Shown one piece after another: positions 22,628 to 25,733 of a stretch of 25,733 nucleotides of DNA. Both the position numbers and the translations under genes were made by a program. Origin of the DNA: Candidatus Aerophobota bacterium (GTDB lineage: Bacteria > Aerophobota > Aerophobia > Aerophobales > B3-G15); the NCBI GenBank assembly GCA_014859225.1, contig JACUUP010000012.1, positions 1 through 25,733 on the forward strand. Direction: 5' to 3'. The notes beneath the pieces are model-generated. The model made no database searches. It saw nothing but the letters and a program-made list of their open reading frames with translations, and had not been told where the DNA came from. The number at the start of each line of letters is the position of its first letter. Position 1 is the first letter of the stretch.

Positions 22628-23689
22628 TTAGCTTAATCTCCCCAGGGACTCCTCTACATATTGACGGTCTCTTGCTCTAATCAGAACATTTTCTCTGGTA
22701 ATTAATCTCTTTCTTGCTAAATTCACCAGAGACTGGTCCATTGTCTGCATTCCTATATTAGCACCTGTTTGCATTATATTATAAAGTTGATGAGACTTAC
22801 CTGCACGTATCAAGTTAGCAACCGCCGGGGTTCCAATTAAAATCTCTACTGCTGGAACTCTCCCGCTTCCACTTTGTCTTGGAATTAAAGTTTGTGCAAC
22901 AACAGCCACCAAAGTTGTAGAAAGCTGTGTCCTTACCTGGGACTGCTGATAGGGAGGGAAAACATCAACTATTCTATCTGCTGCCGAAGGAGCATCAGGT
23001 GTATGCAAAGTAGCCATAACAAGGTGTCCTGTCTCGGCAGCGGTTATAGCAGTAGAGATTGTCTCTAAATCCCGCATTTCACCTATCATTATCACATCAG
23101 GGTCCTGCCTTAAACAGTACTTGAGAGACGAGGCAAAAGAGAGAGCATCTTCCCCCACCTCCCTTTGCTCTACCACACTCCTTTTGTGAGAGTGAAGATA
23201 TTCAATGGGGTCTTCTATAATTATGATATGCACAGCCCTTGCTTTATTTATAATATCAACCATACAGGCAAGGGTTGTTGATTTGCCACTGCCTGTTGGG
23301 CCTGTAACAAGTATCAGTCCTTTATCCTTAAGACAAAACTGTTCAATAACTAAAGGTAAATTTAATTCTTTTAAAGAGGGCACAACGTATGAAATTAGCC
23401 TGATGGCTGCTGCTACAGACCCCCTCTGGTAGTGAACATTTATGCGAAATCTTCCCATTCCAGAAACCCCGTAAGGAAAATCAAAATCCTTATTTTTTTC
23501 AAAAATAACTCGGTGGTCATCCTCCAGCAAAGCATATACAAGGGACCTGGTTTCCCCTGGAGTAAGAGGTTTCCCCTTCTCAAACCTCAGCTCTCCATCC
23601 ACGCGAAAAGCAGGAGTAAGCCCAGCTACAATATGCAAATCAGATGCACCTATTTCCCTCATTTTTTCTAACAATAACCTTATTTCCAT
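22628..23689 (-). CDS. pilT: Type IV pilus retraction ATPase PilT
   Basis: A 353-residue hexameric secretion ATPase that powers pilus retraction at the inner membrane. ASDLHIVAGLTPAFRVDG opens the N-terminal domain. Walker A is GPTGSGKST (130-138), the Asp box is around IIIIEDPIE, Walker B IMIGEMRD and the His box MATLHTPDA. The C-terminal VANLIRAGKSHQLYNIMQTG corresponds to the PilT-specific AIRNLIRE region and separates it from PilB. The ATG at 23689 follows AAAGGAGG by about 10 nt, so the gene truly starts inside the DUF5317 gene (50-bp overlap); an internal ATG at 23662 is less well supported. No other pilus gene is in the window. Confidence 0.95.
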   Translation of the reverse strand: MEIRLLLEKMREIGASDLHIVAGLTPAFRVDGELRFEKGKPLTPGETRSLVYALLEDDHRVIFEKNKDFDFPYGVSGMGRFRINVHYQRGSVAAAIRLISYVVPSLKELNLPLVIEQFCLKDKGLILVTGPTGSGKSTTLACMVDIINKARAVHIIIIEDPIEYLHSHKRSVVEQREVGEDALSFASSLKYCLRQDPDVIMIGEMRDLETISTAITAAETGHLVMATLHTPDAPSAADRIVDVFPPYQQSQVRTQLSTTLVAVVAQTLIPRQSGSGRVPAVEILIGTPAVANLIRAGKSHQLYNIMQTGANIGMQTMDQSLVNLARKRLITRENVLIRARDRQYVEESLGRLS

Positions 23690-24272
23690 TAGCTTTCTTC
23701 CTCCTTTGAAAAAATTTAAATAAGCGAATTTCCCCTACCATATAATTTTGAATAAGCAAAAAAACTCCCACTGCCATTATAACATCTCCTATACTTAAAA
23801 CTCTGGGGTTTGGATAAGGTGGGGGTAAGGGTATTATATCAGCTAAAAACTTGAGCTTTGTCTTTGCATCCATTATAGTATGAATCACGTAACTTTTACT
23901 CTCAAGCAAGGGTAACATATCTTGCATTTTCACTTTTTCCAGTGCCTCTAAACAAACAGGCATCTGACCTTTATTGAGCAAAATGACCAAAAAATTAAGC
24001 ACAATTCCCACACCAAAGATGCCTATCTCTTTTATATGTCTGTTATACCAGATACCTGTTAACAAAATAAGGTAAGAAAGAATATGCATGTAAATTCCCC
24101 ATCCTTCAAAAAAATTAACTCCCCTTTCTCCACCCTTAACTAATATATACTGAATTATAAAAGGAATGATTATTAAAACAATTTTATTAAATTCAATTTT
24201 TGCTAAATTCCCCAGTTTCCCTCCGCGCAGGAAGGCAATAATTATAGAAATAACCAAAACATCAAGTAGCAT
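23640..24272 (-). CDS. DUF5317 membrane protein
   Basis: A 210-residue multi-pass membrane protein with about five hydrophobic segments. The C-terminal half shows the DUF5317 signature: NKGQMPV, a KLKFLADIIPLPPP stretch and VLSIGDVIMAVGVFLLIQ, followed by a basic cytoplasmic tail. The function of the family is unknown. The start overlaps the HD-GYP gene by 11 bp and the end overlaps pilT by 50 bp, so translation of the three is tightly coupled. That context suggests a role linked to membrane c-di-GMP signalling or the pilus. The N-terminal MLLDVLVISIIIAF can serve as the first membrane helix. Confidence 0.75.
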   Translation of the reverse strand: MLLDVLVISIIIAFLRGGKLGNLAKIEFNKIVLIIIPFIIQYILVKGGERGVNFFEGWGIYMHILSYLILLTGIWYNRHIKEIGIFGVGIVLNFLVILLNKGQMPVCLEALEKVKMQDMLPLLESKSYVIHTIMDAKTKLKFLADIIPLPPPYPNPRVLSIGDVIMAVGVFLLIQNYMVGEIRLFKFFQRRKKANGNKVIVRKNEGNRCI

Positions 24273-25509
24273 CTCTTTTTAACACCTTAAGGAAAGCTTC
24301 CACGACCTTCCCATCAAATTGAGTCCCTGCATGTTTTTTAAGTTCTTTAATAGCTTTTTCCTTTGAGAGTGCCTCTCTGTAAGGTCTATGGGAAGTCATA
24401 GCGTCATAGGCATCAACAACAGCAATGATTCTACTGCCCAGAGGAATGCTCTCTCCCTGAATTTTTGCAGGATACCCGGAACCGTTATACCTTTCATGAT
24501 GATGGTAAACAATTCTTGAAACTTCCGTAAAAGAGCCCCCTACCTGAGAAAGTATTTCGCCTCCAATAGTAGAATGTCTTCTAATCTTATTCCAGTCTTC
24601 TTTGCTGAAAGAATCATCCTTGGAAAGAATTGTATCAGATACACCTATTTTACCTATATCATGCAAAATTGCCGCATATCTTATTACTTCCGCATTATAA
24701 ATGGAACAACCTAACTCTCTTGCCGTCTCCGTAGCATAATTTGCCATCCGCTGGGAATGTTTCTCGGTATAAGGGTCACGCGCTTCTACCGCAGTGGCTA
24801 AAGCTTGAATCACAGATAAATGCTCCTTTCTCATATCCATATATAGCTTATAGGCCCAGTAAACAACAAAAAGGGGGAACATTATAAAGGTTACCGCCCA
24901 CCAGCTTATCTGGTAGTAAACCATAGCCATTAAAAATCCAAGCGGGGTTTGAGCGAGGTAGTTTGGCATAGCCCAGCGAAAATTGTTTGACCACATATCA
25001 AAAACAGAGCTTTTTTTCTCCAGAGCAACAACTGTGGATACTATAAATGAATTAAGTACAAAATAAGATGTTGCAGCACAAATTAGGGGAACAATATGAG
25101 CAGCATCCGGACTTCTTATAACCATTCCTCCTGTATACTTATAAGCCAGCCAGGCTCCTGATACAGAGATAGTAAACTGTCCGCAGTTAAACAAAATTTT
25201 TTTTACATCTGCATTTTTGCCTTTTTTTAACTCGGTTAAAGCACCACAACTCACCACCCATACACCCATCACAGGACCCTGAGTTATTAGAGTTGCATAA
25301 ATAATAGGAAAAGCTAAGGTAACAGAGCCTCCATAGGGTAGGGAAACGGAGAAGAGCTCAGCTATAAAAACAAGCGTTGCCCAGAAAAGGAAAGCCTTCC
25401 CCGTTTCCCAGCTAATATCAATATTTACAGTCCATATTATTAGGAGTGCCAGACCAACTACCGTCACTAAGTAAATATATAGAGAAAGTTCATTCCTCTT
25501 AAATTTCAA
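24262..25509 (-). CDS. Membrane-bound HD-GYP c-di-GMP phosphodiesterase
   Basis: A 415-residue protein. The first 225 residues form about seven or eight membrane segments without a recognised ligand domain. Residues about 230-410 are an HD-GYP domain, which hydrolyses c-di-GMP: HDIGKIG (H283, D284), RHSTIGGEIL, and the signature HHERYNGSGYP (337-347), with Asn where many relatives have Asp. VEARDPYTEKHSQRMA is the usual first helix. The start codon is TTG (25507-25509), a few nt after AGGAGA. The N-terminal part is a good candidate for a membrane receptor. Two tandem short peptide genes end 39 bp upstream on the same strand, and DUF5317 and pilT follow with overlaps. Confidence 0.92.
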   Translation of the reverse strand: MKFKRNELSLYIYLVTVVGLALLIIWTVNIDISWETGKAFLFWATLVFIAELFSVSLPYGGSVTLAFPIIYATLITQGPVMGVWVVSCGALTELKKGKNADVKKILFNCGQFTISVSGAWLAYKYTGGMVIRSPDAAHIVPLICAATSYFVLNSFIVSTVVALEKKSSVFDMWSNNFRWAMPNYLAQTPLGFLMAMVYYQISWWAVTFIMFPLFVVYWAYKLYMDMRKEHLSVIQALATAVEARDPYTEKHSQRMANYATETARELGCSIYNAEVIRYAAILHDIGKIGVSDTILSKDDSFSKEDWNKIRRHSTIGGEILSQVGGSFTEVSRIVYHHHERYNGSGYPAKIQGESIPLGSRIIAVVDAYDAMTSHRPYREALSKEKAIKELKKHAGTQFDGKVVEAFLKVLKRDAT

Positions 25510-25548
25510 CTCTATCTCCTAAAATCCACTTAGATTAAACATTTTTTA

Positions 25549-25626
25549 TTACCAGCGAAAGTGAGCTCCTCCGGCTAAAAGAAGAGAAGCAAGCACAAAC
25601 AAAGCTTTGAGAACTTTAGCCTTCAT
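25549..25626 (-). CDS. Short signal-like peptide gene, copy 1 (25 aa)
   Basis: The minus strand encodes a 25-residue peptide from ATG (25624-25626) to TAA (25549-25551). The Shine-Dalgarno GAGGAGGTGA is essentially a perfect match to the 16S tail, 5 nt ahead of the ATG, which makes translation very likely. The peptide has a basic N-region MKAKVLK, a hydrophobic core ALFVLASLLLA and the polar-aromatic C-terminus GGAHFRW. It looks like a leader or signal peptide with a very short tail. Cleavage after Gly-Gly (residues 19-20) would release AHFRW, and after Ala21 HFRW; both are inference. It lies 39 bp upstream of the HD-GYP gene on the same strand. It matches no family I can name. Confidence 0.75.
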   Translation of the reverse strand: MKAKVLKALFVLASLLLAGGAHFRW

Positions 25627-25733
25627 CTATATCACCTCCTCGTTTGAGATTTTTAAATTGTCCAGGAAAACCACCACCTACCAGCGAAAGTGAGCTCCTC
25701 CGGCTAAAAGAAGAGAAGCAAGCACAAACAAAG
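25550..25733 (-). repeat. Tandem duplication carrying the short peptide genes
   Basis: Positions 25550-25604 and 25679-25733 are identical over 55 nt, offset by 129 bp. The repeated part covers the 3' two-thirds of each peptide gene, including all synonymous positions. The second copy is cut by the window end, so the true repeat length and copy number are unknown. Confidence 0.9.
25678..25733 (-). CDS. Short signal-like peptide gene, copy 2 (partial)
   Basis: The C-terminal 17 residues of a second peptide gene, ending LLLAGGAHFRW and then a TAG stop (25678-25680), instead of the TAA of copy 1. The coding sequence is identical to copy 1 up to the window edge. Its start lies outside the window. 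It is separated from copy 1 by 51 bp, which contain the copy 1 Shine-Dalgarno and no obvious promoter or terminator, so both copies are probably on one mRNA that continues into the HD-GYP gene. Confidence 0.7.
   Translation of the reverse strand, partial: LFVLASLLLAGGAHFRW

Follow-up and report, generated by a model that had tools for sequence, protein, structure and literature searches.

A short-peptide gene paired with a MASE9-HD-GYP membrane protein: a probable peptide signalling cassette in Aerophobota and other phyla

Closest described systems

In the Phr/Rap and other RRNPP systems, a peptide with a Sec-like leader carries a variable signal of about pentapeptide size at its C-terminus and is encoded beside the gene for its receptor. 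These features are shared by the locus described here, as, possibly, is sensing from inside the cell. Whereas the RRNPP receptor is a cytoplasmic TPR protein, the candidate receptor here is a membrane-bound HD-GYP enzyme with an S-component fold, and no TPR receptor is found in the cassette, which holds only the MASE9-HD-GYP and DUF5317 genes beside the peptide. The Agr (AgrD/AgrB/AgrC) and ComC/ComD systems also combine a peptide with two membrane proteins, one of them a multi-pass receptor, and show specificity-group behaviour in which the peptide and the sensor domain vary together. Unlike these, the present cassette has no Cys thiolactone core (most tails lack Cys), no match to the AgrB peptidase and no histidine kinase, and its output is a c-di-GMP phosphodiesterase. 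It is filed under peptide signalling, outside both Agr and RRNPP.

The S-component fold is shared by the 5TMR-LYT receptors BtsS and YpdA, in which the receptor domain is fused to signalling domains (PMC11109136). Both these receptors and the S-components of ECF transporters resemble the membrane domain of the cassette in their fold and in an extra N-terminal helix (PMC11109136). Their ligands, in contrast, are pyruvate or vitamins and metals, bound in a pocket that faces outward, whereas here the ligand is apparently a peptide, the topology is predicted to be inverted and an eighth helix precedes the HD-GYP domain. The HD-GYP phosphodiesterases PA4781, DvhD and PmGH have the same catalytic fold, with its HD..K and HHE..G.GYP motifs. 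We know of no peptide gene described as a partner for any of them. A literature search, with most subscription journals outside its scope, returned no relevant paper on the cassette, MASE9 or DUF5317.

The cassette in the Aerophobota window

The window is a 25,733-nucleotide stretch of a Candidatus Aerophobota contig (JACUUP010000012.1), and the peptide, HD-GYP and DUF5317 genes all lie on its minus strand near the right-hand end. Copy 1 of the peptide gene (25549-25626) is a complete open reading frame for 25 residues, MKAKVLKALFVLASLLLAGGAHFRW, which belongs to a conserved family and is preceded by the Shine-Dalgarno sequence AGGAGGTG (25633-25640, minus strand), identical in relatives. Its stop lies 39 nt from the TTG start, at 25509, of the HD-GYP gene. 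Copy 2 (25678-25733, minus strand) retains its last 17 residues and stop within a 55-nt exact repeat (25679-25733), inside which the window ends, so that its start is cut off. The missing start is found on contig C236 of the same assembly (L003, positions 1-68), which opens with the identical repeat. The sequence-only reading, which had reported tandem signal-like peptides ahead of the HD-GYP gene and advised extending the contig rightward to count them, was thus correct for this genome, which has at least two copies; the tandem layout is confined to some genomes and is not general. Pfam and NCBIfam searches with the peptide gave no match. Its architecture is that of a hydrophobic leader with an A-x-A-like end, followed by a short tail of the form x-x-[RKHQST]-W-(x).

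Transcription runs from the peptide copies through the MASE9-HD-GYP and DUF5317 genes to a PilT-like ATPase gene and others. The HD-GYP gene (24262-25509, minus strand) encodes 415 residues with Pfam matches to MASE9, HD_5 (E 2.5e-37) and HD. The MASE9 match (PF20972) scores 31.3 bits against a gathering cut-off of 24.3; elsewhere the score ranges from 82.9 bits in L014 to below the cut-off in L103. Residues 217-415 of the AF2 model superpose on the HD-GYP domain of DvhD (Z 25.7, rmsd 2.3). The window protein reads HHERYNGSGYP; in the home-phylum HD-GYP, N replaces the D of HHExxDGxGYP, and full HD-GYP activity in this phylum is therefore not certain; the D is present in other phyla.

The third gene of the cassette (23640-24272, minus strand) overlaps the HD-GYP gene and encodes an integral membrane protein whose sole Pfam match is PF17248 (DUF5317); this order is kept in other phyla. 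Two invariant Asp residues, 18 apart, prompted the idea of an LspA-like aspartyl peptidase. A confident model (pLDDT 87.6) resembled nothing among solved folds, LspA not being among the matches, and the only hhalign match to LspA spans 24 columns in which the catalytic motifs are not in register. The lspA gene itself (PF01252) was not found in six Aerophobota genomes (G000-G005) and is present in G013 of the same phylum. The gene after DUF5317, in the same direction (22628-23689), codes for a PilT-like ATPase of type IV pilus retraction, which may hint at the output.

Conservation within Aerophobota

The phylum was sampled with 17 genomes; its named records in the pattern scan described below are Candidatus Aerophobetes. 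In sister genomes the HD-GYP gene has seven orthologues whose upstream sequence is available, and the peptide precedes all seven, in one to three copies, with the consensus MKAKLIKxLFxxxxLLLAGGAN.[RHK]W(GG), and the peptide HMM has matches in 9 of the 17 genomes (E < 1e-9). Several orthologues are found close to the start of a contig, where a repeat that breaks the assembly would place them. Genome G006 has a related tandem peptide, and a full-length receptor was not found there. Conservation in relatives had been set beforehand as one point on which the proposal could fail, to be examined upstream of HD-GYP/DUF5317 genes; the search recovered the conserved peptide in 7/7 relatives with sequence ahead of the HD-GYP gene and also in other phyla.

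Occurrence and linkage in other phyla

Homologues of the receptor elsewhere are accompanied by peptides of the same plan, ending for example in LAAGAGFHWK or LTLAADFKWH. Independent searches of 386 genomes were made with the peptide HMM and with one for the receptor domain; outside the home phylum, the receptor domain was also present in seven of the eight genomes with a peptide match at E < 0.003. The eighth, a weak match in G252, was discarded as it falls inside a 233-residue open reading frame. By an objective open reading frame rule, 17 of 51 regions upstream of MASE9-type HD-GYP genes in other phyla held a candidate, against 0/51 on the opposite strand and about 10/590 control windows (594 are listed, one being itself a receptor locus). 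Since the HMM matches 9 of the 17 home-phylum genomes and the upstream candidates stand far above background, occurrence of the peptide by chance is excluded.

Once widened, the HMM had matches in the phylum of G035 (45 of 111 genomes) and in the class of G157 (19 of 25). At 51 of 53 loci in Bacillota and these two groups the receptor gene lies directly downstream of the peptide gene, usually followed by DUF5317; of the two exceptions, L219 is at a contig end and L212 (L259 as a wider stretch of the same locus) has its receptor interrupted by inserted DNA. A further 15 loci (L244-L258) have peptide, HD-GYP and DUF5317 genes except at contig ends. The receptor is interrupted just past the L1 region both in L259 (G436) and in L260 (G457), the latter with a transposase-like open reading frame.

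DUF5317 occurs in 27 of the 386 genomes, and the receptor domain is present in 24 of these 27. Among the 15 genomes outside the phylum with both receptor and DUF5317, 13 carry the present peptide type; in G341 a diverged peptide lies between the two genes and in G177 none was found. No peptide was found in the two genomes with DUF5317 and no receptor (G207, G210).

A DNA pattern for the peptide alone, run against the genomes of 84,980 species, gave six short-peptide matches besides Aerophobetes. Four are in records named as Bacillota (Symbiobacterium, Eubacteriales, Clostridia and Dethiobacter), all directly before MASE9-HD-GYP and then DUF5317. The other two are standalone peptide genes, LLLAGGANLKWW, at G061:C10:1308-1373 and G336:C60:3999-4064, away from the receptor and with a good promoter match (tested in G061). 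A peptide without an HD-GYP neighbour had been named at the outset as evidence against the pairing, and locally that is the case in G061 and G336; it does not refute the pairing because both genomes retain all three components, with the receptor and DUF5317 on other contigs. A plasmid of Natranaerobius thermophilus also has a peptide ending in LAGGASFTWGGGG before HD-GYP and DUF5317; the PLSDB gene table leaves this peptide unannotated, and the frames of the other two genes are broken.

Other peptide types (GGRNDW; GKTGWE/GRSGWGD; GRAGW; GGDTDW; GFWD), some shorter and acidic, lie before MASE9-like HD-GYP genes in genomes without DUF5317 (L087, L088, L097, L095, L096, L099, L125, L085, L090, L110 and L130). 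Where a genome holds two paralogous receptors, each can come with a short peptide of its own.

Evolution of the peptide and covariation with the receptor

A Thermus-like group, its genera inferred to be Thermus (g31) and Meiothermus (g286), allowed the two parts of the peptide to be compared. Over 21 genes the leader has a pN/pS of 0.27, a sign of purifying selection, and the tail 0.58; leader columns hold one to three residues each, whilst the tail follows [STG][AMTFLYV][HQRFN]W[KEQRD] with the Trp invariant. Comparison of the genes shows the peptide gene to evolve as a translated gene would, with a hypervariable tail built around the invariant Trp behind a near-fixed leader. In almost every Thermus-like locus (e.g. 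L199) the stop codon of the peptide gene is followed directly by a hairpin resembling an intrinsic terminator, and a terminator between the peptide and HD-GYP genes is absent in most other groups.

The membrane domain of the receptor diverges further than the HD domain (mean distance 0.30 versus 0.20), and with the HD domain controlled for, differences between tails still follow those between sensor domains (partial Mantel r 0.44, p 0.0002). Among the 18 discovery pairs, Arg at the receptor position equivalent to residue 54 of the window protein accompanies every acidic last residue, and Glu every basic or Gln one. The charges are complementary in 15/15 charged discovery pairs, in 7/8 later ones, drawn from loci outside the set used to find residue 54, and hence in 22/23 overall; the single exception is L223, whose HD-GYP gene is frameshifted, and the interrupted receptor of G436 gives another mismatch. 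Placed on the HD-domain tree, this amounts to five or six independent charge switches, essentially all matching (p 0.06 for the sign test alone), relatedness being accounted for only in those tail-receptor correlations where the tree was used. The earlier proposal that the HD-GYP protein is the receptor gains support from this covariation, which points to its membrane domain.

In the S-component fold the ligand-side loops are L1, L3 and L5. Residues 7-205 of the AF2 model (pLDDT 88) are predicted to adopt this six-helix fold, the model matching NikM (4m5b; Z 16.9, rmsd 2.9 over 187 residues) and, with Z of about 10-14, RibU (14.4), FolT, BioY and ThiT. The best charge-matched columns, 54, 100 and 171 (the last for tail position 3), map to L1, L3 and L5 of this model respectively, and no charge relation was found in the opposite-face loops or in the HD domain as a whole. 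In L204 the HD domain groups with one clade and the sensor region and tail come from another, as if sensor region and tail had been exchanged together. A tail-receptor correlation can also arise when neighbouring DNA is transferred jointly; as the sole cause this is disfavoured, because the loop nearest the peptide gene (residues 26-36) has no charge relation and L1 and L3 do.

Loop charges across phyla, by the positive-inside rule, and the parity of TM8 place the predicted pocket on the HD-GYP, cytoplasmic, side. With its fusion to HD-GYP and its pocket predicted inside, the domain falls outside the ECF transporter S-components. With a cytoplasmic pocket, the peptide would either return to the cell after export, as with Phr, or be read before it leaves, and the covariation, if it reflects contact, likewise implies that the peptide is met from inside. 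The initial idea of a pheromone system thus retains its pheromone-like layout and a pair conserved across phyla, but simple extracellular sensing fits poorly with such a pocket.

A probable mechanism and its alternatives

The recurrence of the matched pair in several phyla makes this look like an undescribed peptide signalling system, and it is probable that the cassette encodes a pheromone-like peptide together with a receptor of S-component fold that reads it and controls c-di-GMP. The precursor made from the small gene would consist of a fixed hydrophobic leader and a short variable tail, and the tail may be freed by cleavage after the leader, either by signal peptidase I or by DUF5317. Following export and Phr-like re-import, or before export, the tail would bind the pocket through loops L1, L3 and L5 and shift HD-GYP activity; c-di-GMP would change in turn, and perhaps also the behaviour of type IV pili or of the cell at surfaces. 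A fuller version is tentative, and we regard it as possible but somewhat doubtful: that these are widespread intercellular pheromones, in at least Aerophobota, Bacillota, Deinococcota-like bacteria and other phyla, with an inverted S-component-fold receptor directly controlling c-di-GMP breakdown, DUF5317 dedicated to processing or import, and agr-like specificity groups among related species.

The peptide might instead never be released and, anchored in the membrane, serve the HD-GYP protein as a small regulatory subunit that clamps the receptor loops with its tail. The fixed hydrophobic segment of 18-20 residues, which exceeds the need of a generic signal peptide, the tight pairing with a single partner, the predicted cytoplasmic pocket and the existence of one-helix regulators would all suit such a subunit. 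It is nevertheless unlikely, as the Lys-rich start predicts an N-in/C-out orientation with the tail away from L1, L3 and L5, and a tail that is hypervariable by species behind a fixed leader is typical of self/non-self signals rather than subunits; identical tandem copies and the Thermus-like terminator after the peptide gene also suggest separate, strong production. That same terminator before the HD-GYP gene, together with a short reading frame with a Trp codon near its end, is what a transcription attenuator sensing charged tRNA-Trp would offer. Such a leader peptide is very improbable here: the hydrophobic leader is kept at the protein level with synonymous change, the tail covaries with the receptor and usually has a single Trp, most other groups lack the terminator, and standalone copies have a promoter match of their own (G061, G336). 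Type I toxins, for their part, are short, hydrophobic and at times tandem, but the fixed partnership with HD-GYP and DUF5317 and the hypervariable polar tail matched to the receptor leave a toxin-like role hardly credible.

Implications

If the signalling interpretation is true, peptide signalling would be tied directly to c-di-GMP, with neither a histidine kinase nor a transcription factor in between. The S-component fold would gain a peptide ligand, the MASE9 and DUF5317 Pfam families would gain a common role, and peptide communication would reach uncultured and thermophilic phyla. Moreover, should the Thermus-like genus prove to be Thermus, the cassette would be available in a laboratory organism that is naturally transformable, and charge-swapped peptides give direct predictions.
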